From NCBI GenBank assembly GCA_021108395.1, contig JAIOQZ010000001.1:1-61843 (forward strand): a stretch of 61,843 nucleotides of DNA, written 5' to 3'. Under the pieces are notes generated by a model. It did not search any database. It was not told the DNA's origin and saw nothing but the letters and a program-made list of their open reading frames with translations. The translations under genes were made by a program, and so were the position numbers. This stretch comes from Candidatus Cloacimonadota bacterium. GTDB lineage: Bacteria; Cloacimonadota; Cloacimonadia; Cloacimonadales; JAIOQZ01. Numbering within the stretch: the stretch's first letter is position 1; each line of letters opens with the position of its first letter. Below, in pieces: positions 43,658-57,545 of the stretch.

Positions 43658-45853
43658 TTGGATACCAACGCGGATGTAACCAAATTCGGTACGTTCCTGG
43701 GAGTATATACGCCCAGCGTTCTCACGATTCTGGGTTTGATCATGTATCTGCGTTTCGGTTGGGTTCTGGGCAATGTCGGCCTGGGGTTAACCGCGTTCAT
43801 CGTTCTTCTCGCGGGTTCAATCACTGTCATTACCGCTCTCAGCGCCTCTGCAATCTCAACGAATATGCGAGTGGGTGTGGGCGGCGAATACTACATGATC
43901 TCTCGCAGCCTGGGACTGGAACTGGGCGGAGCGATTGGTATCCCGCTGTTCCTTTGCAGAACCCTGAGCATTACATTCTACAGCTTTGGTCTGGCGGAAG
44001 CCATCGCCATGTTCGTTCCAGGCGATGTCTCGGCGCGGACGATACAGCTAATGACAGCGATCATCATTATCGCCATCACCTTTGTATCGGGCAAAAGCGC
44101 TTCGGTGGTGCTCAAGCTTCAAGTACCTATCATGATTGCCGTCGGGCTATCGATAGCGGCATTGATAATCGGCGCTCTCTCAAGTGATTTGCGAGCGCCG
44201 GAAATGGTCGCCACATATCGAACAGCGCCACAGGGATTCTGGTATGTGTTTGCCGTATTCTTCCCTGCGGTCACCGGATTTACGGCCGGGATCGGCATGA
44301 GTGGCGACCTGAAAGACCCGCGAAGATCGATACCTCTGGGCACAATGCTGGCAGTAGCTACCGGCATGTTGATATATCTGCTCGTTCCTGTCCTGCTGTC
44401 AGTCAGCTCCACAATCAGCTTCGAGGATCTGGCGAGCAAAGGGGTGGTGACATGGAGCATGATTGCAATCCTGGGGGCGTGGCTGGTGGTTCCCGGGATA
44501 TTCGGGGCAATCCTGTCCTCTGCATTCGGTAGCGTTCTGGGCGGGCCAAGAGTGTTGCAGTCACTGGCGACGGATGGCCTTGCTCCTGGGTTCCTCTCGA
44601 AGCTGTCCAAAACCGGCCAACCAACGGCGGCGACGTGGGTAAGTGGCGGAATCGCCCTTCTGGCGGTTGCACTGGGCGGGCTGAACGCTGTCGCCCAATT
44701 TGTGACGATCATGTTTCTCACGCTTTACGTTATGATTAACTTCAGCGCTGCCATCGAAAAGCTGACCGGTGATCTCTCATACAGGCCAAAGATCAATATC
44801 CCCTGGTTTGTCTCTCTTCTGGGTTGCCTGGGCGCTGTTATCGTAATGGCGCTTATCAATCCAATCGCCTGTGTCGGGGCAATCATGCTGGAAGCTCTTT
44901 TGTTTATCGGGCTGCGGCGGCGTGCGATGAAGAAAGAGTGGGGGGATGTTCGCGCCGGGTTCTGGGGCACCCTCGCCAGATTCGCCCTGCAAAAACTGAA
45001 AGCGCACGAGGATGACCCTCGCAACTGGAGGCCGCACATTCTGGTGTTTTCCGGTGAGGTAGAGAAAAGGATGTCTCTGGTTTACCTGGCCTCTTGTTTC
45101 AACCGACAGCGTGGAATACTTACCATCTGCAATCTCGTCATAGACAGTTTTTCTCACAACAAGCTCGATATCAGGGCGGAAACGGAAAAAATGAATGCCT
45201 GTCTCGAGCAGGAAGGCATCCTTGCTTTCAGTGAGATAGACTTGGTCCCCGATTTTGAAAATGGGGCGATAACCGTAACGCAGGCGAACGGCATCGCCGG
45301 CCTCAACTCGAATACCATACTGTTTGGCTGGTCGGATAAAAGGGAACGAATGCAGGCGCAGATTCGCATAATGCGCGCTGTGGAAATAGCCAATAAGAGC
45401 ACGATTATTATTCGCACAGATGAGTTTTCCAGAGAGACGCCCAAGAAACGCATCGACCTCTGGTGGCGGGGCAAACACAGCAATAGTGACATCATGCTTC
45501 TGCTGGCTTACATGCTCACCCTCAACGTTGACTGGAAAGGCGCGAAGATATATCTTCAAACTATTATCCTGCACGAAAACGATATGGAATTCATGATGAA
45601 AAGCCTTACGGATATGATTGATGAAATCAGAATCAGCGCAGAGCCGCGGGTAATTGTCAAACCACCGGAAAAAACGGTTATCGAGCTTATGCATGATTAC
45701 AGTCAGGACGCGGATGTTGTGTTCCTCGGACTGATGATTCCCGCGGAGGGTATGGAAAGTGAATACGTCGATAGAATGGATGAGCTTTCCAGAGGATTCA
45801 GCACAACGGTATTTGTGAGAAATGGCAGCAAGTTCGTCGGTGATCTGTTGTAA
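43658..45853 (+). CDS. SLC12-like amino acid/cation-chloride cotransporter family permease
   Basis: A 731-residue transporter of the APC superfamily. The first about 430 residues hold twelve helices, beginning GTFLGVYTPSVLTILGLIMYLRFGWVLGNVG, which is the SLC12 (Na-K-Cl type) signature, then GGEYYMISRSLGLELGGAIGIPLF. The last about 280 residues are a soluble domain similar to the SLC12 C-terminus (LVYLASCFNRQRGILTICNLV). The start is TTG at 43658, directly after GGGAGAGAGG, and gives the usual short cytoplasmic tail. It ends 8 bases before the repeat unit preceding the lipid operon; whether it belongs to it functionally is unclear. Confidence 0.87.
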   Translation: MDTNADVTKFGTFLGVYTPSVLTILGLIMYLRFGWVLGNVGLGLTAFIVLLAGSITVITALSASAISTNMRVGVGGEYYMISRSLGLELGGAIGIPLFLCRTLSITFYSFGLAEAIAMFVPGDVSARTIQLMTAIIIIAITFVSGKSASVVLKLQVPIMIAVGLSIAALIIGALSSDLRAPEMVATYRTAPQGFWYVFAVFFPAVTGFTAGIGMSGDLKDPRRSIPLGTMLAVATGMLIYLLVPVLLSVSSTISFEDLASKGVVTWSMIAILGAWLVVPGIFGAILSSAFGSVLGGPRVLQSLATDGLAPGFLSKLSKTGQPTAATWVSGGIALLAVALGGLNAVAQFVTIMFLTLYVMINFSAAIEKLTGDLSYRPKINIPWFVSLLGCLGAVIVMALINPIACVGAIMLEALLFIGLRRRAMKKEWGDVRAGFWGTLARFALQKLKAHEDDPRNWRPHILVFSGEVEKRMSLVYLASCFNRQRGILTICNLVIDSFSHNKLDIRAETEKMNACLEQEGILAFSEIDLVPDFENGAITVTQANGIAGLNSNTILFGWSDKRERMQAQIRIMRAVEIANKSTIIIRTDEFSRETPKKRIDLWWRGKHSNSDIMLLLAYMLTLNVDWKGAKIYLQTIILHENDMEFMMKSLTDMIDEIRISAEPRVIVKPPEKTVIELMHDYSQDADVVFLGLMIPAEGMESEYVDRMDELSRGFSTTVFVRNGSKFVGDLL

Positions 45854-45861
45854 ATCAGACA

Positions 45862-45914
45862 CCAGCTTTTTGTAAAAAGTTGGAGCAAAAAAATTTGCGG
45901 ATGCTGACGCATCC
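45862..45914 (+). repeat. Two-hairpin intergenic repeat unit, site B (single copy)
   Basis: A 10-bp stem CCAGCTTTTT/AAAAAGTTGG (45862-45871, 45874-45883, one G-T pair), the linker AGCAAAAAAATTTGCG and the 6-bp stem GGATGC/GCATCC (45899-45904, 45909-45914). It has the same orientation as the forward unit at 53874. It lies between the transporter and the UbiA-led operon. Confidence 0.75.
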
Positions 45915-46007
45915 TGGTGTCATAAGAGTAACGGTTGTACACAGGAAACGCAAAGCCGCGCAGTCCACAAAAAATGAGTGTGAGAAAGTAGATTTCCGGG
46001 GGAACAG

Positions 46008-46985
46008 ATGTTCAGTTTTCTCAAGCAATATGTGAAATCCATGCGACTGTATTACTCCTTTGTCACTGGAATTGCCGGTTGGCTCGGAGTCGCCTTTTAT
46101 GAACACATTGCCACCGACTTTCACACTGTCGAGATATTGCCGACTGTCGAAAAGAAATTGGTGATAGTCACCCTGTTGTTTCTCAGTTGGGGAATCAACC
46201 AGATAGTCAACGACTACCTGGGGCGCAGGGAAGACAGAATCAACGCGCCGGAAAGGCCGATGGTGAGCGGCAAGCTCAATCCGCGCGCCGCCATTACTCT
46301 CTCTGGGGTTCTGATGGTCTTGTGCGCGGTGATTACATACATCTATCTCGAACCAATCGCCCTGATTCCCCTGGCCGCCGGCGTTGTGCTGAATATTATT
46401 TACGAATACGCCAAGAGTTACGGTATATGGGGCAACATCATTTTTGGACTCATGATTACCATGTGCTCCGCCTTTGGCTTTCTGGCTGCCGGCCCCAGCT
46501 CCGTTCCCTATTTCACCTCCAGCAGAATTTCGGTCTTGCTCGTCGTCTGGCTGATGAACGGCCTGATGACCTTCTACACCTATTTCAAGGACTACGAAGG
46601 CGATAAAGCCGCCGGAAAGCGCACAATCGTCGTGAAATACGGCCTGGAGAAATCCCGTGTTATCGCGATAATCTCAGCCTTTCTGCCCATCATTCTGTTC
46701 ACGGCGCTATACTGGAACAATCTCATCGTGGCTTCCCTCAACAGCACATTCATCATTCTCGGCGTATTGACCTTCTTTCTTGAAATTCAAACAGGATGGC
46801 TCTATTTCAAGAATCCCAAGGGCAAAGTGACCTACTACTCCCTCGCGACCAATTTCCGCGCCTGCACCTGTGGCCAGGCCACTTTTGTGGCGCTGTTCAA
46901 CCGTGAGCTTGCCCTCATTCTGTTTCTTGTTTCCTATGTGTTTGTCGGGTTTCTGTTTAACCTGCATTCCAACAGTAAGGCCTGA
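46008..46985 (+). CDS. UbiA-family prenyltransferase
   Basis: A 325-residue integral membrane enzyme with about nine helices that transfers a prenyl chain to an acceptor. Both Mg-diphosphate motifs are visible: NQIVNDYLGRREDRIN (an N/D-x3-D-type motif, about residues 62-77) and YFKDYEGDKAAGKRT (about 189-203). The family includes quinone, heme O, chlorophyll, archaeal ether-lipid and phosphoribose transferases, and the acceptor cannot be told here. The start follows CGGGGGAAC. Its stop overlaps the reductase start by one base (TGATG), so it is the first gene of a tightly coupled operon with acyl-carrier and alpha-oxoamine synthase genes. A lipid or quinone-like acceptor is therefore possible. 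Confidence 0.9.
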   Translation: MFSFLKQYVKSMRLYYSFVTGIAGWLGVAFYEHIATDFHTVEILPTVEKKLVIVTLLFLSWGINQIVNDYLGRREDRINAPERPMVSGKLNPRAAITLSGVLMVLCAVITYIYLEPIALIPLAAGVVLNIIYEYAKSYGIWGNIIFGLMITMCSAFGFLAAGPSSVPYFTSSRISVLLVVWLMNGLMTFYTYFKDYEGDKAAGKRTIVVKYGLEKSRVIAIISAFLPIILFTALYWNNLIVASLNSTFIILGVLTFFLEIQTGWLYFKNPKGKVTYYSLATNFRACTCGQATFVALFNRELALILFLVSYVFVGFLFNLHSNSKA

Positions 46986-48196
46986 TGAAAGCTTTCAGAA
47001 AGTTTGACCATGATGCCTGCCGCGTAGAAGATCATACCATCAGGTCAGCGACCTTCGAAGGAATGTGTGATGACGCAGGGCGCCCCACAGACGAGTACCG
47101 GCGGCATTACGAGGCTCTCGCCAGGGGTGGAGTGGCCAAAATCATCACCGGTTTCGCCTACATCTCGGTGCAGGGCAGGGCAATCCACCCAGGCCAGGCG
47201 GGGATTGATTCAGACGAGAAAATACCCTTCTTCAAAGCTGTCACCGACGCGGTTCATCGACACGGCGCAGAGATATACCTACAGATTGCCCACGCAGGCA
47301 GGCAAACGAGCAAAAGTGTCACCAACACAGACATTGTGGCGCCTACGCCGCAGAAATCACGCTACTTTGGCGGCAAGCCACAGGCTCTTACGCTTTCCCA
47401 GATCAAGGCTGTCGTCGCTGACTTTGCCCAGGCGGCGCTGAGGGCAAAGTCGGCAGGGTTTGACGGTGTTCAACTTCATGCGGCGCACGGGTATCTGATT
47501 CACGAGTTCATCAACCCTGTAGTGAACAAAAGGACAGATGAGTACGGAACCGGTGAGCCGCATCGACCAGGTATCCGCTTTCTGACAGAGATTGTCGCCC
47601 GAACAAGAGAGCTGTGTGGGGCAGACTTTCCCATTCTGGTGAAGATCAGCGCGGGTGATGGCAAAGAAGATGCCGCCAACCACTTTCTGCACCTGATACA
47701 GGCGTTGGACAAGCTGCAACTGGCGGCGATTGAGGTCAGTTATGGAACGATGGAGAATGCCTTCAACATATTTCGCGGGGAGAGCATCCCATATGAGACG
47801 ATATTGAGATACAATTTTCGCTATGGAACCGACAGCGCAGTGAGAAAGTTCCTGTGGAGAGTGTTCGCCGCTCCGATTCTCCAGCACAGGGTCATCAAAT
47901 TCTCGCCGAACTATAACCTGAAATACGCCAGACTGGCGAAGCATGGAACCGACACTCCCATTGTGTGCGTGGGCGGATTTCGTACGAAGTCATCCATCCA
48001 TGAAGCCTTGCGGCAGGGCAGCGTCGATTATGTGAGTATGTGCAGGCCATTTATCTGCGAACCGGACTTGATGAAGAAATTTGCCAGGCACGATGACTAC
48101 ACATCCCTGTGCCGGAATTGTAATATCTGCGCAGTCATGTGCGATTCAACGAAATCCACGCGGTGCTATTGCGTTACTAAGGAGAGGAAACGATGA
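46985..48196 (+). CDS. NADH:flavin oxidoreductase (Old Yellow Enzyme family) with Cys-rich C-terminus
   Basis: A 403-residue FMN TIM-barrel ene-reductase. Landmarks are IRSATFEGMCDDAGRPTDEYRRHYEALARGGV, then QIAHAGRQ, DGVQLHAAHGYLIHEFINPVVNKRTDEYG (His pair for substrate) and KISAGDG. The C-terminus carries CRNCNICAVMCDST and then TRCYC, resembling the 4Fe-4S ligands of 2,4-dienoyl-CoA reductases, but the FAD/NADPH domain of those larger enzymes is absent. It probably reduces a C=C bond in an acyl or prenyl intermediate. It overlaps UbiA by 1 base and the acyl carrier gene by 4. Confidence 0.88.
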   Translation: MKAFRKFDHDACRVEDHTIRSATFEGMCDDAGRPTDEYRRHYEALARGGVAKIITGFAYISVQGRAIHPGQAGIDSDEKIPFFKAVTDAVHRHGAEIYLQIAHAGRQTSKSVTNTDIVAPTPQKSRYFGGKPQALTLSQIKAVVADFAQAALRAKSAGFDGVQLHAAHGYLIHEFINPVVNKRTDEYGTGEPHRPGIRFLTEIVARTRELCGADFPILVKISAGDGKEDAANHFLHLIQALDKLQLAAIEVSYGTMENAFNIFRGESIPYETILRYNFRYGTDSAVRKFLWRVFAAPILQHRVIKFSPNYNLKYARLAKHGTDTPIVCVGGFRTKSSIHEALRQGSVDYVSMCRPFICEPDLMKKFARHDDYTSLCRNCNICAVMCDSTKSTRCYCVTKERKR

Positions 48197-48426
48197 GCAT
48201 GGAAACAATAATGCAGATAATAGCGGACAACCTCACGGATGTTCCGCAGCTCACGGAGACCACCTCCCTGCGAGCCGAATTGAACGTCGATTCGCTGGAC
48301 GTGATAATGATTATCAACGCCCTCGAAGACGAATTTTCGCTCACCATAGACGAGGATGATTTCGTCGAGGTGGATACCCCGGCGGAGATATTCAACCTGC
48401 TGAAAAGCAAATACTCTGTGGAGTGA
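48193..48426 (+). CDS. Acyl carrier protein
   Basis: A 77-residue carrier that holds acyl chains on phosphopantetheine. The attachment serine is Ser34 in ELNVDSLDVIMI, the D-S-L motif; helices I to IV and the acidic surface (ALEDEFSLTIDEDD) are as in the family. It starts inside the end of the reductase gene (ATGA overlap) and is followed after 2 bases by the alpha-oxoamine synthase. A dedicated carrier next to such a synthase resembles the Caulobacter sphingolipid locus, where an ACP partners serine palmitoyltransferase. It is not the housekeeping acpP by context. Confidence 0.93.
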   Translation: MSMETIMQIIADNLTDVPQLTETTSLRAELNVDSLDVIMIINALEDEFSLTIDEDDFVEVDTPAEIFNLLKSKYSVE

Positions 48427-48428
48427 GG

Positions 48429-49628
48429 ATGAGCGTCAGAGACAAATTCGCCTTCAACTACCGCGAGGAAGACAGGCTTGTGCGGGAGCTGAAGTATAAT
48501 CCCTACTATCAGGTAATAAGTTCAGGGGCAGGCAGCTCTGTCGAGATAGACAGCCGCGAATATCTGAATCTCGCCTCGAACAACTACCTGGGTTTCTCGC
48601 GCAACCCGGAGATACTGGCCCGGATGAAGCAGACCATCGACCAGTATGGCGCCTCGATGTGCGGAACACCGGTGGCCTGTGGGAATGTCGATTTGTATGC
48701 CGAGACAGCCGTAGCGTTCAGCAGGTTCCTGGGGCTCGAAGACACCATCATCTTCCCGTCCTGCTATCAGGCAAATGCCGGCATCATCGGCACGCTGGCG
48801 AAGCCAGGCGATATTATCCTGGTGGACAGGTCTTCGCACGCCTCCCTGCTGGATGGAATCCGAGCGGCAAAATGCAAAGTGCGCCCCTTCAAGCACAACG
48901 ACGTCGATCATCTGCTGCGGTTGATAAAACGCACCGATGGCTATGACAATATCTTCGTCATCACCGAATCCGTGTTCTCCACCGAAGGCAGCATTGCCCC
49001 GTTTGACAAAATCTACCGCATCTGCCAGGAATTCGACGCCATACCCATTGTTGACGATTCACACGGCATCGGCGTTATCGGCAAAAATGGCGGGGGGATA
49101 CTCGAAGAAAAGGGAATAGAAAACTACGAGGGGATTTACACGGCGTCAACGGGGAAGGCTCTGGGACTTGCCGGTGGCATAGTGAGCAGTGTTTCCGAGG
49201 TGATAATGTACTTGAAGTACAATTCCGCCAGTCTGTTGTATTCCACAGCCCTGCCCCCTGTTTTCCTTTCGGCGACAACGAAGGCTCTCGAAATCCTGAG
49301 CGCCACTGGCGCAGAACTGATGCAGAAGCTGCGGGCAAACAAAGCCTTTCTCACCAGCCAGCTTACTGAGCTGGGTTATCGCACCACAGAGGCGGAAGCG
49401 CCCATCTGCTCTGTCATTGTCGGCTCGAACGAAAAAACGTTCCTGATGAGCAAATTGCTGTTCGAGCAGAGCATTCTCACCACGCCTTTCATCTTCCCGT
49501 CAGTCGCCCGTGATAAGGGGGTTATCCGCATGATTCCGCGGGTTGACCTTACTCAACAGCAACTGGAGTGCGTAATTGAGGCCTTCAGAAAAATCAAGGC
49601 CGAGCGCCCTGAACTGTTCGAGCAATGA
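48429..49628 (+). CDS. Alpha-oxoamine synthase (serine palmitoyltransferase/BioF/KBL-like), PLP-dependent
   Basis: A 399-residue fold-type I PLP enzyme of the group that joins an amino acid to an acyl thioester with loss of CO2. PLP residues visible: DRSSHASLLDG (His137), PIVDDSHGIGVIG (Asp209, His212) and STGKALGLAGG with the Schiff-base Lys243. The substrate-side segment GTPVACGNVDLYAETAVAFS departs from the usual G-x-R...G-x-x-x-x-H-x-x-L-E pattern, so this is a diverged branch. The ATG at 48429 has GGAG five bases before it. With its own ACP, a ketosynthase and a short-chain reductase in the operon, long-chain base synthesis (sphingoid-like) is the best guess; aminoketone natural products are the alternative. 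Confidence 0.85.
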   Translation: MSVRDKFAFNYREEDRLVRELKYNPYYQVISSGAGSSVEIDSREYLNLASNNYLGFSRNPEILARMKQTIDQYGASMCGTPVACGNVDLYAETAVAFSRFLGLEDTIIFPSCYQANAGIIGTLAKPGDIILVDRSSHASLLDGIRAAKCKVRPFKHNDVDHLLRLIKRTDGYDNIFVITESVFSTEGSIAPFDKIYRICQEFDAIPIVDDSHGIGVIGKNGGGILEEKGIENYEGIYTASTGKALGLAGGIVSSVSEVIMYLKYNSASLLYSTALPPVFLSATTKALEILSATGAELMQKLRANKAFLTSQLTELGYRTTEAEAPICSVIVGSNEKTFLMSKLLFEQSILTTPFIFPSVARDKGVIRMIPRVDLTQQQLECVIEAFRKIKAERPELFEQ

Positions 49629-50578
49629 AAATGAGATACTGCTTTATCCACAATCCCGGTTCAAATCACGGCAGAAGCGGAAAATGTGTGCCTTATTTTC
49701 AGAACATATTGAAAGCCCAGAATATCGCCCATGACTACAACATCACCAGCAGCCTCGCCGAAGCTGCCGAGCTGTCTGAAAAAGCGAACAGAGCAGGCTG
49801 TGACTGCATCGTGGCCGTGGGTGGAGACGGTACCATAAACCGTGTTGTCAACGGGTTTTATGACACCAGCGGCAAGCGATTATCAAATGCACGGCTGGGG
49901 GTGGTCCACACCGGAACCAGTCCCGATTTCTGCCGCAGCTACGGCATCCCCACAGAGCCGTTTGCCGCCCTGGACACCGTTCTGGAAGGCCATACGGTCA
50001 AAATCAGCGTTGGCAAGGTCGATTACCGCAAATCTCAGGGCAACAGAGAGCGCCTGGACACCAGATATTTCTCGTGCTGCGCCAATATCGGCCTGGGGGC
50101 GGCGGTGGCGCGGTATGCAAACTCGGGTTTCAGACGGCGGCTTGGAGACAGCTCGGGTACCCTTGTGGCCATTCTCATGGCTCTCATCACCTTCAAGCTC
50201 TCGCCCATCGAGATTGTAGCCGACGGCAAAACAACACGCATCCCCAGGAACATCAACACCTTCATCGGCAAGACAGATTTCGTCGCGTCGGGCATAAAAA
50301 TATGCAATAACCTTGAACTGGACGACAAACGACTGTATGTGCTGACGCTCGATGATGTTAACTGGAGGAACGTCGTTCCCCTGCTGCGGTGCATATATTC
50401 CGGCGCGCCTCTGAGGAACTCTCGCAGCCTGTCGTTTGGGTATGCGACAAGTGTTGTCATCGAAGCTGAGAGCGATAGCTATGAGGTGGAGTTTGACGGT
50501 GATCCGCAGGGGACGCTGCCGTGCACAATATCTGTTGCCGAGGAGCTGTTGGACTTGATTGTGGAGCAGAGGCCATGA
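49625..50578 (+). CDS. Diacylglycerol/sphingoid-base kinase family lipid kinase (YegS/LCB5-like)
   Basis: A 317-residue lipid kinase that phosphorylates a hydroxyl group on a lipid with ATP. It has the N-terminal FIHNPGSNHGRSGK loop, the catalytic GGDGTINRVVNG motif (residues 66-70 for GGDGT) and GVVHTGTSPDFCRSYG; the C-terminal beta domain contains EVEFDGDPQGTLP, matching the family D-G-E/D-x-x-x pattern. The stop of the oxoamine synthase overlaps its start by 4 bases. A kinase of this class next to an oxoamine synthase parallels eukaryotic long-chain base kinases and the ceramide kinase known from Caulobacter. This supports a phosphorylated amino-lipid product. Confidence 0.88.
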   Translation: MKMRYCFIHNPGSNHGRSGKCVPYFQNILKAQNIAHDYNITSSLAEAAELSEKANRAGCDCIVAVGGDGTINRVVNGFYDTSGKRLSNARLGVVHTGTSPDFCRSYGIPTEPFAALDTVLEGHTVKISVGKVDYRKSQGNRERLDTRYFSCCANIGLGAAVARYANSGFRRRLGDSSGTLVAILMALITFKLSPIEIVADGKTTRIPRNINTFIGKTDFVASGIKICNNLELDDKRLYVLTLDDVNWRNVVPLLRCIYSGAPLRNSRSLSFGYATSVVIEAESDSYEVEFDGDPQGTLPCTISVAEELLDLIVEQRP

Positions 50579-51594
50579 GCCGCGAAAAAGAGATAATCAG
50601 CCTGATTAACGCGCAGATGCCTACATCCCCGCTGCGAGCCAGCGCCTGCTTCGAGGCAGACGCGGAGGCCATTCTTCTGGACGACAAGGTATATCTGTTC
50701 ACAACCGACGATTTCTCCGCCGAAGACCTGCTGGGGGAGAGTGACCCGTTCACCCTGGGCTGGAACTTGGCCTGCGCCTCGATCAGCGACATCGTGGTCT
50801 CCGGCGGCAACCCTTTGACATATGCTCACTCCATGGCGCTGCCCGGCGCCTGGTCTGCCGACTACATCCGCAAGCTGTCACAAGGCATCGCCGCGGTATT
50901 GAAAAGGCACGCAGTGTCCTTTATCGGCGGAGACCTGGGCGTCTCGGCGAACTGGCGCTACACAGCCTCGGTAATCGGCTCGCCCATCACAACGCCTGTC
51001 ACCAGAAAAGGGGCGAAAGCGGGCGACCTGGTTTACATCACGGGCGACGTGGGCAGAGGCAACCTGGCAGCGGCAATGAATCTCTACCCCGAGGCGCAGG
51101 AAGCCGACCAGTCAGCCGTGCCCATCAAGTTCCGCTGCCTGAGCAAGCTCCCGGCGTTGGTTTCCCGCTTCGCCACCTCCGCCATCGACACCAGTGATGG
51201 CGTGCTGTGCGGCCTCAAGACAGTGGCGGAGATAAACAAGACCGGCTTTGCAATATCAGACATCCCATACAACACTGCCGGGCTGCTTGCCGCCGAAGTT
51301 CTTGGCATTCCCAGCACATTGCTGCTGGCTGGAGAATGCGGTGAATATGAAATCCTGCTCACTGTCAATTCCTTGCGGCAATCGGAATTGAAACAGTATG
51401 CCGAGGATAGTGGCATAGAGATTCATGAAATCGGGAAAATAGTGAGTGACGCGAAGTGCCAGCGACTCATTGAAGGCGAGACGGAGTATGATGTGCTGGG
51501 CTATCACCTGAGGGCGCGAGACTTCGCTGTCGTGACGGACTATTTGCGGCAGATGACGGAGTGGTTCAATGCCAATGGGAAACGCCATGCATAG
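50575..51594 (+). CDS. ThiL/PurM-superfamily ATP-dependent enzyme, role unknown
   Basis: A 339-residue protein of the PurM/ThiL/SelD/HypE fold. Recognisable segments are FTTDDFSAEDLLGE, GWNLACASISDIVVSGGNPL, FIGGDLGVSANWRY, YITGDVGRGNLAAAM, AIDTSDGVLCGL and LAGECGEYEILLTV. These are the positions of ThiL's D-x-F, S-D-I/A, GGD, TG, D-x-SDG and G-E-D/E-YE motifs. Thiamine-phosphate kinase activity is possible, but no thiamine genes are near and some motifs differ (GGDLG for GGDTT). In this operon it may phosphorylate or cyclise a pathway intermediate. It overlaps the lipid kinase by 4 bases. Confidence 0.8.
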   Translation: MSREKEIISLINAQMPTSPLRASACFEADAEAILLDDKVYLFTTDDFSAEDLLGESDPFTLGWNLACASISDIVVSGGNPLTYAHSMALPGAWSADYIRKLSQGIAAVLKRHAVSFIGGDLGVSANWRYTASVIGSPITTPVTRKGAKAGDLVYITGDVGRGNLAAAMNLYPEAQEADQSAVPIKFRCLSKLPALVSRFATSAIDTSDGVLCGLKTVAEINKTGFAISDIPYNTAGLLAAEVLGIPSTLLLAGECGEYEILLTVNSLRQSELKQYAEDSGIEIHEIGKIVSDAKCQRLIEGETEYDVLGYHLRARDFAVVTDYLRQMTEWFNANGKRHA

Positions 51595-52834
51595 AAGAGT
51601 GGTCATTACGGGCATCGGGCCGGTTACAATCGCGGGAATCGGCGCGGCGGAGCTGTTCGCCAATCTGTTGAACGGCATCGATGTCGCCAGGGAAATCGAG
51701 ATTGACCTGCCCTACAAAAACAGGTCGTCATTCTATGTGCCGCTGCCGGAAGTGGAAATAAGCCATTATGGTATTGCGAGGTATTATAAGTTTCTGCAAC
51801 CGGAAGATAAAATGGCGATCATCGGTGCCAAACTGGCCTTGCAGGATGCCGGCATCGAACAGGCAGGCGACGAACAGGCTTTCGCGGACATCGAAGACGC
51901 CTGCATTGTGCTGGGCACCGGGTTCAGCGGACTGGAACCAGCGTTTTTCTCCTATCTGTCGCATCTGGGGCACGAATATACAGCGAGAGCCACCAACAGA
52001 AAAGTTAATTTCAATCGCATGGTAATCCCCATGTTGATGCCGTCATCTCCAGCCGCCTGGATTTCTATCCTGCTGGGCGTGAAGGGCGAAAGCTATACGC
52101 TGAACACAGCCTGCGCTTCGGGCACATTCGCCATTGGAGAGGCGTTTAGAAAGATTAGGTTCGGTCTGGCGGATATGGCCATTACGGGCGGGGTGGAAAA
52201 CCTCCACGATGAGAATTACGCTATCTTCCGCGGTTTCGATTCTTTGGGGGCTTTAACTCGTTCAAGCCAGGGGCAGGCGTTCTCGCAGGATCGTTCCGGT
52301 TTTCTGTTCGCCGAAGGGGGGTGCTGCGTCCTCGTCCTGGAGGAGCTGGGCAGGGCAAAACGCCGAAACGCCCGCATTTACGCAGAAGTGCTCGATTACC
52401 AGGCCAACAGCGATGCCCACCACATTGTCAAAATGGAGCCGGATGGCAAACAGGTGACGGCGCTTCTCGGCAGCTTTGCGTCCCGGCACAAAATCGACTA
52501 CCTGAACTCACATGGAACCGGCACAATCCCCAACGATAAAATCGAAGCTCAGTCAATACAGGATGTGTTCGGGGCAATGAGCGCGCAACCGTTCATCAAC
52601 TCGACAAAAGCGGTTCTGGGGCACACCATCGGTGCGAGCGGGGCCATCGAAGCAGCGGTGACGGCTCTCAGCATATTCAACGGCAAAATTCACCCGAACC
52701 GGATAAGCAACCCTATGGTCAACCTGAACCTGGCCACACGGATAATCGAGCAGCCGCTTGACAGGGCGCTGTCGGTTTCGTACGGATTTGGCGGGCACAA
52801 CGCCGGTATTCTGCTGGGTAAGCTTGATGAGTAA
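51569..52834 (+). CDS. Beta-ketoacyl-ACP synthase (FabF/KAS II-like)
   Basis: A 421-residue condensing enzyme that extends acyl-ACP chains. The catalytic triad is complete: Cys182 in NTACASGTFAIGEA, His315 in NSHGTGTIPND, and His352 in KAVLGHTIGASGA. It starts RRVVITGIGPVTIAGIG as in FabF. ATG 51569 has GGAG seven bases upstream; ATG 51587 (MHRRVVITG) is the alternative and would reduce the overlap with the upstream gene from 26 to 8 bases. As a stand-alone KAS with a dedicated ACP it may set the chain length or starter for the oxoamine synthase. No malonyl transferase, dehydratase or KR of a full PKS is present. Confidence 0.9.
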   Translation: MPMGNAMHRRVVITGIGPVTIAGIGAAELFANLLNGIDVAREIEIDLPYKNRSSFYVPLPEVEISHYGIARYYKFLQPEDKMAIIGAKLALQDAGIEQAGDEQAFADIEDACIVLGTGFSGLEPAFFSYLSHLGHEYTARATNRKVNFNRMVIPMLMPSSPAAWISILLGVKGESYTLNTACASGTFAIGEAFRKIRFGLADMAITGGVENLHDENYAIFRGFDSLGALTRSSQGQAFSQDRSGFLFAEGGCCVLVLEELGRAKRRNARIYAEVLDYQANSDAHHIVKMEPDGKQVTALLGSFASRHKIDYLNSHGTGTIPNDKIEAQSIQDVFGAMSAQPFINSTKAVLGHTIGASGAIEAAVTALSIFNGKIHPNRISNPMVNLNLATRIIEQPLDRALSVSYGFGGHNAGILLGKLDE

Positions 52835-53852
52835 GACGCTTATCACCGGAGGCTGCGGGTTCATTGGCAGCCACATAGTGCAGGAGTTTCTCGCCAACGA
52901 GGTGGATGTAGTTTGCTTGGTGAAATCGTCCAGCGACACATCCTTTTTGAACTCGCTGAACGTAGAGCTTGTGACAGGCGACATAACCGATATTGACTCG
53001 ATTGTCAGCGCTCTCGCGGGGATTGATTATGTGGTTCATGCTGCCGGCAAGTCTTCCGATTGGGGCAGGTATCAGGATTTCTATAATGCAAACGTTCTGG
53101 GCACGATGAACATCCTGAAGGCGTGCCGGAAATGCGGGATAAACGACCTGACCATCACCGGCTCTATCTCCTCGTATGGAGAGGAGAACAGCAGGACTGT
53201 GAAGGATGAGAACTCGCCGTACAAGTCGCATTATTCCTATTTCGGGTTCTTCCCTTCCGCCATGAACTACTACCGTGACACGAAAGCGGAACTAACGAGG
53301 CAAAGCATCGCGTTTGCCCGACGCAACGCCATGAACCTGACTGTGATCGAGCCGGTCTGGGTGTACGGGGAGAGAGAATTTCACACTGGCTTTTACGAAT
53401 ATATCAAGGCGGTTGGCAACGGTATGAGCTTCGCGCCCGGCTCACAAACCAACCGGTTTCACGTTGTCTATGCAAAAGACCTTGCCAAAGCATACTATCT
53501 GGCCTATGCAAAAAGACTCAACGGGGTGAGCAGAATGATAATCGGCCAGCCGCGTACTGTTTTGCTGGATGATGTTTATCGGCTTTTCTGCAAGGAGGCG
53601 GGACTGAAGAAGCCAACTTCTCTGCCGAAATGGCTGGTCTATCCCCTGGGTTTTGCCCTGGAGGCGTTATATACGTTGCTGCACAGTGCCTCTCCGCCAA
53701 TACTCACCAGAGCCAGGGTGAACATGATGTACGACAACATCGAATATTCGACAGAGAAGGCGAAGAACATGCTGGGGTTCGTTGCAGGCACCTCTTTGGA
53801 AACAGGCATAAAGAACACTGTGAACTGGTACAGGACGAACGGATACTTGTAG
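52827..53852 (+). CDS. NAD(P)-dependent epimerase/dehydrogenase (extended SDR, 3-beta-HSD/CerR-like)
   Basis: A 341-residue extended short-chain dehydrogenase. The Rossmann motif is LITGGCGFIGSH (residues 5-16), followed by GDITDID and HAAGKSSDWG; the catalytic pair is Tyr149 and Lys153 in NYYRDTKAEL. The C-terminal half resembles the 3-beta-hydroxysteroid dehydrogenase/nucleoside-sugar group (RFHVVYAKDLAKAYYLA). In Caulobacter an SDR of this type (CerR) reduces the keto group made by serine palmitoyltransferase, so reduction of the 3-oxo amine is a sensible proposal. It overlaps the ketosynthase by 8 bases and ends the operon just before a pair of repeat units. Confidence 0.87.
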   Translation: MSKTLITGGCGFIGSHIVQEFLANEVDVVCLVKSSSDTSFLNSLNVELVTGDITDIDSIVSALAGIDYVVHAAGKSSDWGRYQDFYNANVLGTMNILKACRKCGINDLTITGSISSYGEENSRTVKDENSPYKSHYSYFGFFPSAMNYYRDTKAELTRQSIAFARRNAMNLTVIEPVWVYGEREFHTGFYEYIKAVGNGMSFAPGSQTNRFHVVYAKDLAKAYYLAYAKRLNGVSRMIIGQPRTVLLDDVYRLFCKEAGLKKPTSLPKWLVYPLGFALEALYTLLHSASPPILTRARVNMMYDNIEYSTEKAKNMLGFVAGTSLETGIKNTVNWYRTNGYL

Positions 53853-53873
53853 CAGGATGATGACAAAGACAAG

Positions 53874-54032
53874 CCAAACTTTTTGCAAAAAGTTTGGATC
53901 AAAAACTCTTGCGGAAACTTCGTTTCCTATGTACAAAAGTATTTCTATGACACAAGGATGCGTTAGCATCCACAAAAGTTTTTGGTCTCGCTTTTTACAA
54001 AAAGCGAGTGGGGTTCAGGGGCAGCGCCCCTG
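53874..54032. repeat. Inverted pair of two-hairpin repeat units, site C
   Basis: The forward unit has the stem CCAAACTTTTT/AAAAAGTTTGG (53874-53884, 53887-53897), the linker ATCAAAAACTCTTGC and the stem GGAAAC/GTTTCC (53913-53927). The inverted unit has GGATGC/GCATCC (53956-53971), then the linker, then CTCGCTTTTT/AAAAAGCGAG (53987-53996, 53999-54008). A further stem CAGGGGC/GCCCCTG (54016-54032) ends six bases before the AGGAGG of the radical SAM gene. Confidence 0.85.
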
Positions 54033-54048
54033 CCTCTCAGGAGGAATC

Positions 54049-55359
54049 ATGAAAAGCGTACGCGGGTTCAACAAGATGCTGTTTATCCTGTATCTCAAGC
54101 TCTATGTGGGCGTGTCCGTCATCATCGGGTTCCGCCGCAAGCGCAGCGTTGGCCAGTTGATAACCATCCTGAAACGGCTTAACTACTTCATCGACAGGAT
54201 ACGGCACAACAAGTTCATTCATACGGCAAAAGGTGTCCGGCTGAACCTGTATATCCCGGCATTTCCCAGCAGAGCTTTTTTTACCTCCTGCGCCAAGTTC
54301 GCCGTCTTCGGAGAAAAACTTCCGGCCACAACCGCCTTGGTGTCAATCACTTCCGCTTGTCCATACAGTTGCAAACACTGCTACCAGAAACTGGACACAG
54401 GGCCGGACATTGACATCGAGTTCTTAAAAAGCGCTGTCGCCAACCTTCAGGACAAAGGAATCGCCTTTTTCAATATCGAAGGAGGGGAGCCATTCCTGCG
54501 TTTCGATAGGCTGCTCGCATTGTGTGAGGTAATCGACAGCAGGTCTGAAATCTGGATAAACTCCACCGGCCACGGGATTACCAGAGAGAGACTGCTGCAA
54601 TTGAAAGCGACGGAGCTGACAGCCATTATGTTTTCTCTGCACTTCCACGAACCACAGCAATTGAACTCATTTATGGGTAGCGACAATGCCTGGTCAACTA
54701 TGGAAAACGCTATCGCCTTGTGCCACGAGCAAGGTATCCCGGTGGCTTTTAACGCCTGTCTGGGCAGAGCGGATTTCTATAATGGCAACTTCGAGAAAAT
54801 CATGCAAACCGCATATATGTTTGGCGGCTCCATTATTCAGCTCATCAAGCCCAAACCATCGGGTGGCTGGCTGGCCGATGGAGTCGAGGAGTTCACGCTT
54901 GCGGATGTGAAGCTGATTGCGGAAAAAGTGGAGCTGTACAATTGCCACAGGCTGTTCTCGGGCTATCCGGCCATTTCGCCTCAGATTCTCGAAGAGGCGC
55001 CCGAGATGTTTGGTTGCACCGCGGGTGGAACCGACAGGTTTTACATCAATGCAAAGGGCGATGTTCAGCCGTGTGAATTTCTCAACATCTCTTTTGGCAA
55101 TCTGCAAGAGGGTGACTTCAACAGTATTTACAGCAGAATGAGGGCCGTTTTCGATACGCCAGGGGACTGCATTCTCTGCGAGAAGTACTCGAAGAAGATA
55201 CACGACGTTTTCTTGCGGAATCAACTGACGGTTTTACCGCTGGATAAAGTTCTCTCTGAAAAAATCTACCAGGACTGGGATCGGGGAAGGCCCACCAGGT
55301 TGTACTGGATGGTCGAGAAGGTGCTCGAGTACTCTGGAGGCAAGCAAGGCCCAGAGTGA
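54049..55359 (+). CDS. Radical SAM protein with SPASM-like C-terminus
   Basis: A 436-residue radical SAM enzyme. An N-terminal membrane-prone or amphipathic segment (FILYLKLYVGVSVIIGF) and about 80 residues precede the cluster motif CPYSCKHC (Cys104, Cys108, Cys111). The SAM-binding GGEP motif is FNIEGGEPFLRF. C-terminal cysteines in FGCTAGG, GDVQPCEF and CILCEKYS fit an auxiliary cluster of SPASM/twitch type. AGGAGGA lies just before the ATG at 54049. It may modify a lipid or peptide; separation from the lipid operon by the repeat leaves the link to it as inference. Confidence 0.88.
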   Translation: MKSVRGFNKMLFILYLKLYVGVSVIIGFRRKRSVGQLITILKRLNYFIDRIRHNKFIHTAKGVRLNLYIPAFPSRAFFTSCAKFAVFGEKLPATTALVSITSACPYSCKHCYQKLDTGPDIDIEFLKSAVANLQDKGIAFFNIEGGEPFLRFDRLLALCEVIDSRSEIWINSTGHGITRERLLQLKATELTAIMFSLHFHEPQQLNSFMGSDNAWSTMENAIALCHEQGIPVAFNACLGRADFYNGNFEKIMQTAYMFGGSIIQLIKPKPSGGWLADGVEEFTLADVKLIAEKVELYNCHRLFSGYPAISPQILEEAPEMFGCTAGGTDRFYINAKGDVQPCEFLNISFGNLQEGDFNSIYSRMRAVFDTPGDCILCEKYSKKIHDVFLRNQLTVLPLDKVLSEKIYQDWDRGRPTRLYWMVEKVLEYSGGKQGPE

Positions 55360-55446: not shown

Positions 55447-57399
55447 CTATTCTGTCATGCTCTCCAGTTGCAGTTTCACCTCAGACCAGCGTACCGGTTC
55501 CTGCGAGATGTTCAATTCATCCAAGAATGTAAGTTGCCTGGTAGAGTAGGTTTTAATCGCCATGACTCTATAGAACATATGGTTAGCGGGAGCGCCATTG
55601 TTGCCATACTCCAGTACGCCAATATGGTTGAAGCTCGTATTGGGATGCAGAACATAGTATAAGTAGTAGAATTCACTATCCTCGGCCACTTCACTGTATT
55701 GAAGAACATACAAGCTTGGGGTAAGTGGAAGACCATCTATATCGTGCGTAACAGCATCCCAGGAAATGATGGCATCATCGCCAGAAAGTGTTATCTGAAC
55801 ATTCTGTGGAGGAAGCGGGGTGTTGTTCACCGCTATATAGTCTGCTCTCACAAGTGAATCAACCTCAATACCATCGGTGACGGTTAGTTTCACAGTGTAG
55901 ATGCCTGAAGAACTGTATGTATGGCTTGGGTTCTGCTCAATGGAATCGTAAGTTTCGTCATTCTCGAAATCCCATTGCCACCCCGTAGGATTGTTGATGG
56001 AGGTGTCGGTAAACTGAACTGGTGTCCCAATGAACATTTCTGTGGGCGTTGCAGTGAAATTGGTTCGATCCACTTGCCATGTTAAAAACGGATAGTTATC
56101 ATTGATGTAAGGGATGATATCCCAGTAATCGTTGTTACCGCTGTCATCATTCGGATTGCCGATGAAATCCCATGCAGTGGATAAACCTACAGTGAGTAAG
56201 TCAGTAAATGTAGCCACGTCTTGCATTTCGGCTGTTATTTTGCCGGTGCCGCCGGCGCTGGCGCTTTGCCCGGATGTCTGGGTATCCCAGAAAGAATCTG
56301 TAACAGAGCAGAAATTATACCCCACCAGGCCGCCGGTGTAACTTGTTCCCGTTACACTGCCGGTGCAGTAGCAGTTTGTGATGCTGGAGCTATAGCTATT
56401 CTGTCCCACCAGGCCGCCGGTGTAACTTGTTCCCGTTACATTTCCGGTGCAGTAGCAGTTAGTGATGCTGGAATAATCGCAGTTCCTCCCCACCAGACCG
56501 CCAGTGTTAGCGCCACCGCTTACACTGCCAGTGCTATAGCAGTTGCTGATGCTGGAGTTTAAATAGTTATACCCCACCAGGCCGCCGGTGTAACTTGTTC
56601 CCGTTACACTTCCGGTGCTGTAGCAGTTAGTGATGATGGAGCAGCTATTATCCCCCACCAGGCCCCCGACGTAATTTGTTCCCGTTGCACTGCCGGTGCT
56701 GTAGCTGTCAGTGATGGTGGAAGAGTTGACATTACGTCCCACCAGGCCGCCGACGTAATATGTTCCCGTTGCACTGCCGGTGCTGTAGCAGTTAGTGATG
56801 ATGGAGCAACCGTAGTTCCTCCCCACCAGACCGCCGGCGTGATTTGTTCCCGTTACACTGCCGGCACTGTAGCAGTCAGTGATGCTGGAGTTGACTATAT
56901 TCTCCCCCACCAGGCCGCCGGGGTAGCCGCTTCCACTCACACTGCCGGCGCTGTAGCAGTTGCTGATACTGGAGCTGCCATTATACCCCACCAGGCCGCC
57001 GCTGTGGGAATTTCCGTTCACATAAACATCTGTAACACCGAGATTCTCGATTGTGGCGCTATCGGTGCGACCAAACAAGCCTTGATAGTTAGTTGCTGGC
57101 CGGTTGACATACAGGTAGTTAATTGTGTGGCCCTGCCCATCGTAGGCGCCTGTATAATAATTGGGATAGCTACTACCAATCGGGATAAAGCCTTCGCCGC
57201 CGTTCCAGCCGCTTGTGGCTGTGGCATCAATATCGGCTGTCTGGATGAAGTGGGAGCTCAAGTAATTGCCGACGTCCTGCAACTCGGTTACATTACTCAC
57301 CTGGTAGGGGTCACCGGCCGAGCCGTCCCCGCCGGCAAAGGCGGACAGGTTGACGCTCGCGAGAAGGGTGATGATTACAAAAAGGCTCAGCTTCTTCAT
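55447..57399 (-). CDS. Secreted GLUG-repeat protein with PKD domain
   Basis: A 650-residue exported protein. The signal peptide (KKLSLFVIITLLASVNLSAFA) is followed by a beta-helix lead (YQVSNVTELQDVGNYLSSHF). Then come about nine GLUG repeats (GGLVGYN/RN ... NCYSTGSVTGTSY), each about 26-30 residues, between residues about 135 and 375. A linker follows and then a PKD domain (about 460-545) with GWQWDFENDETYDS and HTYSSSGIYTVKLTVTDG. The C-terminal about 100 residues are fibronectin-like; no sorting domain is seen. The repeats are also close at DNA level (56300-57010), so recombination is likely. Such proteins act as surface adhesins. GGAGAGAG precedes the start. Confidence 0.86.
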   Translation of the reverse strand: MKKLSLFVIITLLASVNLSAFAGGDGSAGDPYQVSNVTELQDVGNYLSSHFIQTADIDATATSGWNGGEGFIPIGSSYPNYYTGAYDGQGHTINYLYVNRPATNYQGLFGRTDSATIENLGVTDVYVNGNSHSGGLVGYNGSSSISNCYSAGSVSGSGYPGGLVGENIVNSSITDCYSAGSVTGTNHAGGLVGRNYGCSIITNCYSTGSATGTYYVGGLVGRNVNSSTITDSYSTGSATGTNYVGGLVGDNSCSIITNCYSTGSVTGTSYTGGLVGYNYLNSSISNCYSTGSVSGGANTGGLVGRNCDYSSITNCYCTGNVTGTSYTGGLVGQNSYSSSITNCYCTGSVTGTSYTGGLVGYNFCSVTDSFWDTQTSGQSASAGGTGKITAEMQDVATFTDLLTVGLSTAWDFIGNPNDDSGNNDYWDIIPYINDNYPFLTWQVDRTNFTATPTEMFIGTPVQFTDTSINNPTGWQWDFENDETYDSIEQNPSHTYSSSGIYTVKLTVTDGIEVDSLVRADYIAVNNTPLPPQNVQITLSGDDAIISWDAVTHDIDGLPLTPSLYVLQYSEVAEDSEFYYLYYVLHPNTSFNHIGVLEYGNNGAPANHMFYRVMAIKTYSTRQLTFLDELNISQEPVRWSEVKLQLESMTE

Positions 57400-57545
57400 G
57401 GCTCTCTCCTTGTATGGTTTGTTGATAATCATCCAGTTCAGACTGACAATCTAACGGTATGTATATGCGGCAATCTTTGTCAAGATTTCTTGTTTCAGGG
57501 GTTGCGATAACATCTAATTGCTTGAAATGTATAGGATACAAGAAA

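Follow-up and report, generated by a model that had tools for sequence, protein, structure and literature searches.

A conserved Cloacimonadota operon joins a divergent α-oxoamine synthase to a variant UbiA, a YegS-type kinase and a ThiL-like enzyme

Sphingolipid synthesis in Caulobacter uses a dedicated acyl carrier protein (ACP), a serine palmitoyltransferase (SPT), a reductase, an N-acyltransferase and a ceramide kinase (PMC11324152). SPT-like proteins have been reported in 33 metagenome-assembled genomes of Cloacimonadota, without bCerS or CerR nearby (PMC11334938), and this phylum is also reported to make archaeol-type ether lipids (PMC7852524). ThiL, the thiamine-monophosphate kinase, converts a monophosphate to a diphosphate by in-line transfer (PMC6416309). 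Here we describe an operon within a 61,843-nucleotide stretch of DNA (the window) from a Candidatus Cloacimonadota bacterium (assembly GCA_021108395.1, contig JAIOQZ010000001.1, positions 1 to 61,843; host genome 2.89 Mb, 98% complete). The operon combines an α-oxoamine synthase (AOS), an ACP and a ketosynthase (KAS) with a UbiA-superfamily enzyme, a YegS-type lipid kinase and a ThiL-like enzyme (Table 1). Our preferred reading, which we put forward tentatively, is of a biosynthetic operon, patchy in its distribution, that would make a specialised amino-lipid via a two-kinase relay.

The gene set is conserved together and in order in other genomes, as the sequence-only reading of this DNA had anticipated. 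Loci with the order UbiA, OYE (an old yellow enzyme-type ene-reductase), ACP, AOS, kinase, ThiL-like, KAS and short-chain dehydrogenase/reductase (SDR), as in the window, are termed type A. An initial search of 59 genomes for relatives gave no close match, and matches came only from phylum-wide and profile searches. Relatives of the ThiL-like protein at E ≤ 1e-15 were present in only two other genomes among 125 of Cloacimonadota. Genome G062 (locus L023) preserves the gene order, at 48-64% identity, for the first half of UbiA, the last third of the AOS, the kinase, the ThiL-like gene, KAS, SDR and a radical-SAM gene; the interval from mid-UbiA to mid-AOS is missing across a join that holds no N's, through either a true deletion or a misassembly. 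In G076 (L130), also of Cloacimonadota, UbiA-OYE-ACP-AOS is followed by the contig end. The whole eight-gene order recurs at 40-63% identity in G491 (L064), a genome of the Calditrichota group that came from searching the phylum of a Calditrichaceae genome (UbiA 63%, OYE 51%, ACP 49%, AOS 48%; kinase 44%, ThiL-like 40%, KAS 51%, SDR 55%). There, a 3.3 kb insert of unrelated genes separates AOS from kinase, and the gene run stops 31 bases short of the contig end. SDR orthologues are 54-56% identical to the window SDR. Because the set recurs in order in other genomes, comparative sequence data indicate more than chance clustering. Plasmid searches with the AOS and ThiL-like proteins returned no match above 60% identity, and the ThiL-like matches resembled true ThiL.

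A second arrangement, type B, consists of the UbiA-YegS kinase-ThiL-like trio with a different AOS beside it, and was found by a ThiL-like alignment scan of 84,980 species genomes, extended by profile searches. The order is UbiA-kinase-ThiL-AOS in two Calditrichota-group genomes (L029 and L063) and AOS-UbiA-kinase-ThiL in an unplaced bacterium (L027/L065). A Calditrichia genome carries UbiA-kinase-ThiL at a contig end (L028), and in the Cloacimonadota genome G119 (L024) the trio has no adjacent AOS. Aquimarina sp. RZ0 holds a larger cluster (L040:7925-18549) encoding FabA-like, KAS, ACP, ThiL-like, AOS, DUF3089, carbamoyltransferase, UbiA, kinase and fatty-acid hydroxylase proteins; of the Aquimarina-family genomes sampled, only 1 of 351 gave an operon-level score, and the cluster is hence rare. 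Overall, an AOS lies beside the trio or a trio remnant at eight of ten loci, with one locus unjudgeable and one without. The ThiL-like proteins of types A and B form one clade apart from true ThiL (support 100/99), and the UbiA proteins likewise fall together, on long branches and with modest support (88/88). A single clade of type A and type B AOSs was rejected (approximately unbiased (AU) test, p=0.0045), a result tempered by long branches. Because the ThiL-like proteins of both types form one clade and the AOSs do not, the conserved core seems to be UbiA, YegS kinase and ThiL-like enzyme, with an AOS apparently having joined the same trio twice. The sequence-only reading had placed UbiA, KAS and the ThiL-like enzyme outside the sphingolipid set; UbiA and the ThiL-like enzyme are indeed foreign to it, and the latter, set aside at the time, now stands in the core.

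By superfamily, the window protein is an AOS. The lysine that binds pyridoxal phosphate (PLP), the Asp and the stacking His are retained, with GKA, DDSH and the His of H(A/S)S kept in all three type A proteins; the LHxELE His typical of the family is Tyr or Phe in all three. None of the curated equivalog cut-offs (NCBIfam models) is reached. The protein scores 260, 229 and 179 bits against SPT models with cut-offs of 640, 500 and 670, and falls short for BioF (TIGR00858, 310 bits, cut-off 426), KBL (TIGR01822, 255/493 bits; NF005394, 307/460 bits), ALAS (213/339 bits) and CqsA-type synthases (210/428 bits). In the tree, the type A AOSs group together with full support (100/100), on a long branch that stands next to KBL (99/93), and type B AOSs fall on the SPT side; a clade of the AOS with two SPT references was rejected (AU test, p=0.0015). 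These cut-offs, the tree and the AU test exclude assignment to BioF, KBL, SPT, ALAS or CqsA, and the window AOS is, on these comparisons, a divergent synthase that is neither SPT, BioF nor KBL. The parallel that had been drawn with the Caulobacter sphingolipid genes is accordingly weak. Pfam analysis of the operon proteins found no biotin genes in the operon. The two other AOSs of the host genome are true KBLs above cut-off (L131, L132; host contigs C6 and C12), and no SPT-like AOS was seen in that genome, unlike many genomes of the phylum.

The operon UbiA belongs to its superfamily by Pfam score and by its nearest folds, which are UbiA members; its predicted structure (pLDDT 61, low confidence) is nearest digeranylgeranylglyceryl phosphate (DGGGP) synthase 7bpu (TM 0.64/0.73). 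The prenyltransferase signature (NDxxDxxxD plus DxxxD) breaks down at motif I. In an alignment of ten operon UbiA proteins, this motif is NDYLGxxED in the type A proteins and TDCxQxDTD in those of type B, the middle Asp being absent from all ten and the Asn likewise lost in type B. NDxxDxxxD is intact in five comparators, including the host genome's own DGGGP synthase-like UbiA. Motif II is present as DxxxD (ExxxD in L064), and the basic residues are mostly retained. In AfUbiA, the residue corresponding to the missing Asp, D72, coordinates Mg; D72A abolishes binding of geranyl diphosphate, and N68A likewise abolishes prenyl-diphosphate binding (PMC4106721). Prenylation of the product by the operon UbiA is doubtful, because a metal ligand on which prenyl-diphosphate binding depends in AfUbiA is missing from every operon UbiA. 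The operon UbiA was also considered as the genome's DGGGP synthase and rejected; the better candidate, with an intact motif, lies on another contig. Besides this separate enzyme, the host encodes its own geranylgeranylglyceryl phosphate (GGGP) synthase (PcrB, 149 bits; L069, host C21:21340), which fits the archaeal-type lipids reported for Cloacimonadota. A long UbiA (~500 aa), which has an additional membrane region at its N terminus and an intact motif I, is encoded in the host genome (L068, host C13:34100) and at L024:5893-7473, in G119, where it lies ~1.4 kb beyond the trio's ThiL-like gene.

The ThiL-like protein is predicted to have the AIR-synthase/ThiL fold and differs from curated ThiL. 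It scores 128 bits against TIGR01379, under the cut-off of 184; EGVHF and GEDYEL are absent from nine of nine ThiL-like proteins, and the IGDD loop, which touches the nucleotide in AbThiL (PMC6416309), is partly lost. The motif II Asp, SD, GGD and DTSDG are kept. Its predicted fold is that of ThiL (pLDDT 81; TM 0.69-0.70/0.80 to 3c9t), with Foldseek E values of 1e-25 to 1e-23 against ThiL-family structures, and its profile matches ThiL structures better than PurM structures by ~100 bits. Another ThiL-family gene is present in the host genome. The neighbouring kinase is of the YegS/DgkB family, with GGDG and E-x-D-G invariant in nine homologues and DgkB 2qv7 as the nearest solved structure; its score against TIGR00147 (104.8 bits) is narrowly under the cut-off of 118.65.

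Gene content and order, their conservation, the phylogenies and the kept or lost motifs are observed; from the families present we infer the following reactions and their order, as well as the amino acid substrate, chain, UbiA acceptor and end product. KAS and the dedicated ACP would provide a particular acyl-ACP, which the AOS would condense with an amino acid to an α-amino ketone, and the SDR would reduce this ketone to an alcohol; OYE and the radical-SAM enzyme may tailor the acyl chain. The YegS-type kinase would then phosphorylate the amino alcohol to a monophosphate, and the ThiL-like enzyme would add a second phosphate to give a lipid diphosphate, as in the monophosphate-to-diphosphate reaction of ThiL. 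Finally, the variant UbiA would join the activated lipid diphosphate to a membrane acceptor. We propose the relay because UbiA enzymes use diphosphates, geranylgeranyl diphosphate (GGPP) needs no kinases, and both kinases and UbiA travel together. A broader version is possible though rather doubtful: UbiA, YegS kinase and ThiL-like enzyme might be an undescribed lipid-activation module that carries an AOS-derived amino-lipid alcohol to a diphosphate and on to a non-prenyl UbiA, defining a new membrane-lipid class in at least three bacterial phyla. A literature search for this gene combination found no description, which is weak evidence of absence. Of the phosphorylated, possibly prenylated, amino-lipid suggested by the sequence-only reading, the phosphorylated amino-lipid remains reasonable and the prenylation has become doubtful.

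Several points weigh against the relay. It rests on family chemistry and gene adjacency, and the kinase activity of the ThiL-like enzyme is not certain given the partial loss of the IGDD nucleotide loop. The trio at L024 has no adjacent AOS, and the AOS may thus be dispensable. In the operon UbiA, metal binding may be rescued by E75 (type A) or D74 (type B; AfUbiA numbering), and motif II and the basic residues largely survive. UbiA enzymes normally require their diphosphate substrate to be allylic, which is not obviously true of the AOS product.

The chief rival to the relay is prenylation by UbiA with GGPP. Here a DGGGP synthase-like UbiA would move GGPP onto a phosphorylated long-chain base from the AOS, SDR and YegS kinase, and the ThiL-like enzyme would build a diphosphate head group. 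DGGGP synthase is the nearest solved relative of UbiA, archaeol-type ether lipids are reported for the phylum (PMC7852524), so that prenyl donors and chemistry of this sort would be available, and the surviving motif II and basic residues favour it too. However, the loss of the motif I Asp from all ten operon proteins, set against its retention in the five comparators, together with the missing Asn of type B and the effects of D72A and N68A in AfUbiA (PMC4106721), argues the other way, and we regard this rival as unlikely. A variant sphingolipid of the ceramide-phosphate type would instead have the AOS substitute for SPT, the SDR act as reductase, the YegS kinase act as ceramide kinase and an N-acyltransferase be encoded elsewhere. 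The Caulobacter precedent (PMC11324152) and the lack of an SPT-like AOS elsewhere in the host genome speak for it. Nonetheless, the AOS lies far under the SPT cut-offs and outside the SPT clade, UbiA and the ThiL-like enzyme would have no role in such a pathway, and G062 and G076 appear to hold separate SPT-sized AOSs too. The ceramide acyltransferase that went unseen in the sequence-only reading is likewise unseen here, in that Pfam finds no N-acyltransferase in the operon, the rest of the genome not having been searched. We consider a sphingolipid product very improbable.

Prodigiosin-type pyrrole chemistry begins with an ACP, a KAS and an AOS, and the operon might likewise make a non-lipid metabolite, such as a pigment or signal of the pyrrole or pyrazine type. 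Its precursor would be an amino ketone held on the ACP, with the ThiL-like enzyme activating a carbonyl as PurM does. The ThiL-like protein does belong to the PurM/SelD/HypE superfamily, and a carbamoyltransferase and a hydroxylase extend the Aquimarina cluster in natural-product fashion; against this, YegS kinases and UbiA are lipid-active families and the ThiL-like profile prefers ThiL over PurM structures, which leaves a non-lipid product improbable. The last alternative, housekeeping genes (BioF or KBL, FabF, ThiL and diacylglycerol kinase) clustered by chance, draws on the fact that every family involved is common. It is already contradicted by gene order conserved across phyla; moreover, every protein falls short of the curated cut-off for its housekeeping model, and the genome has two true KBLs and another ThiL-family gene. 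Its likelihood is negligible, and the two-kinase relay to an amino-lipid remains our preferred reading.

The layout also supports much of the original description, that of eight overlapping genes in one direction built on an AOS with its own ACP and KAS. All eight open reading frames (ORFs) between 46008 and 53852 are open and lie head to tail on the + strand, all eight proteins score above the Pfam cut-offs for their families, and the catalytic residues of KAS and ACP are retained. Its extent fell short, with a radical-SAM/SPASM gene missed. We count this gene as a member because its orthologue in G062 (55% identity) and the SDR form a single in-frame fusion of 801 codons (L023:7141-9546); the operon as predicted thus extends past 53852 and has nine genes rather than eight. 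The ORF was listed as 53857-55359, and the good start is ATG 54049, with AGGAGG just upstream.

Table 1 Features of the operon and the spacer before its ninth gene, in window coordinates.
Feature	Coordinates	Strand	Evidence and remarks
UbiA-superfamily membrane enzyme	46008..46985	+	Pfam UbiA 102 bits; variant motif I NDYLGRRED (Gly for middle Asp)
OYE/FadH-type FMN ene-reductase, single domain	46985..48196	+	Pfam Oxidored_FMN 176 bits
Acyl carrier protein, dedicated, DSL phosphopantetheine site	48193..48426	+	Pfam PP-binding 41.7 bits
PLP α-oxoamine synthase (AOS), divergent clade, type A	48423..49628	+	Pfam Aminotran_1_2
YegS/DgkB-type lipid kinase	49625..50578	+	Pfam DAGK_cat 82 bits, YegS_C 46 bits
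ThiL-like AIR-synthase-superfamily enzyme	50575..51594	+	Pfam AIRS; ORF open from GTG 50521 too
FabF-like ketosynthase (KAS), Cys-His-His triad	51569..52834	+	Pfam ketoacyl-synt N and C
Extended SDR (3beta-HSD/OleD/HpnA-like), YRDTK site	52827..53852	+	Pfam Epimerase 117 bits, 3Beta_HSD
Spacer, 196 bases	53853..54048	.	24-base perfect palindrome 53874-53897 and 22-mer
Radical SAM/SPASM enzyme, ninth gene	54049..55359	+	Pfam Radical_SAM 50 bits, SPASM 26 bits

Junctions had been given as overlaps of 1-26 bases with one 2-base gap. The overlaps stand: 1 base for UbiA/OYE, 4 bases each for OYE/ACP, ACP/AOS and AOS/kinase, 4 bases for kinase/ThiL-like from ATG 50575 (58 from GTG 50521), 26 bases for ThiL-like/KAS (8 if KAS begins at ATG 51587) and 8 bases for KAS/SDR with ATG 52827. 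The gap appears only at OYE/ACP, when the ACP starts at its second ATG, 48199. Among homologues, the cysteine-rich C-terminal motif of OYE and HAAHGYL are kept in L064 and L130, the ACP DS(L/F)D is conserved, and the KAS catalytic Cys and both His are kept in four proteins; the SDR scores 140 bits against the HpnA model, under its cut-off. The spacer 22-mer recurs inverted, with 2 mismatches, at 45899-45920 just upstream of UbiA, so that similar repeats flank the eight genes. A repeat search found nothing beyond the short palindrome and this dispersed 22-mer. Directly upstream of the operon lies a gene for a K-Cl cotransporter-like (SLC12) protein (43658-45853), and positions 55447-57432 (- strand) encode a long secreted-looking protein with many near-identical GGLVGYN-type repeats and a PKD-like end.

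If the proposed pathway is correct, it would add to the oxoamine-synthase lipid pathways one that is separate from those of sphingolipids and sulfonolipids, would suggest that a UbiA enzyme can use a non-prenyl donor and would assign members of the ThiL family a role in lipid metabolism. Published work already has Cloacimonadota breaking the lipid divide, and the operon is a second, testable reason for studying the membranes of this phylum. In cultivable hosts such as Aquimarina, the conserved core could guide a search for the product, and the cluster of Aquimarina sp. RZ0 is a possible cultivable route to it.

Among described systems, ThiL shares with the operon protein its fold, GGD, DTSDG and a precedent for placing phosphate on phosphate; unlike ThiL, the operon protein has no EGVHF or GEDYEL motif, keeps the IGDD loop only in part and falls in a separate clade. 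In phytol salvage, the phytol kinase VTE5 and the phytyl-phosphate kinase VTE6 take an alcohol to a monophosphate and a diphosphate, which is passed to a UbiA-family transferase. The operon resembles this plant and cyanobacterial route in logic only, as no AOS is involved there and the substrate is a prenol; to our knowledge, the phytol-salvage kinases belong to families unrelated to the operon kinases. With the sphingolipid genes of Caulobacter and Rhodobacteria (SPT, AcpR, AasR, CerR, bCerS and CpgB), the operon has in common an oxoamine synthase with a dedicated ACP, a reductase and a lipid kinase. It differs in that its AOS is not an SPT and that it holds no N-acyltransferase or acyl-ACP synthetase, and it adds UbiA, ThiL-like, KAS, OYE and radical-SAM enzymes. 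The Cloacimonadota archaeol pathway of GGGP and DGGGP synthases (PMC7852524) comes from the same phylum and includes a relative of the operon UbiA, whereas the operon enzyme forms a separate clade, carries an altered motif I and lies beside an AOS and kinases.

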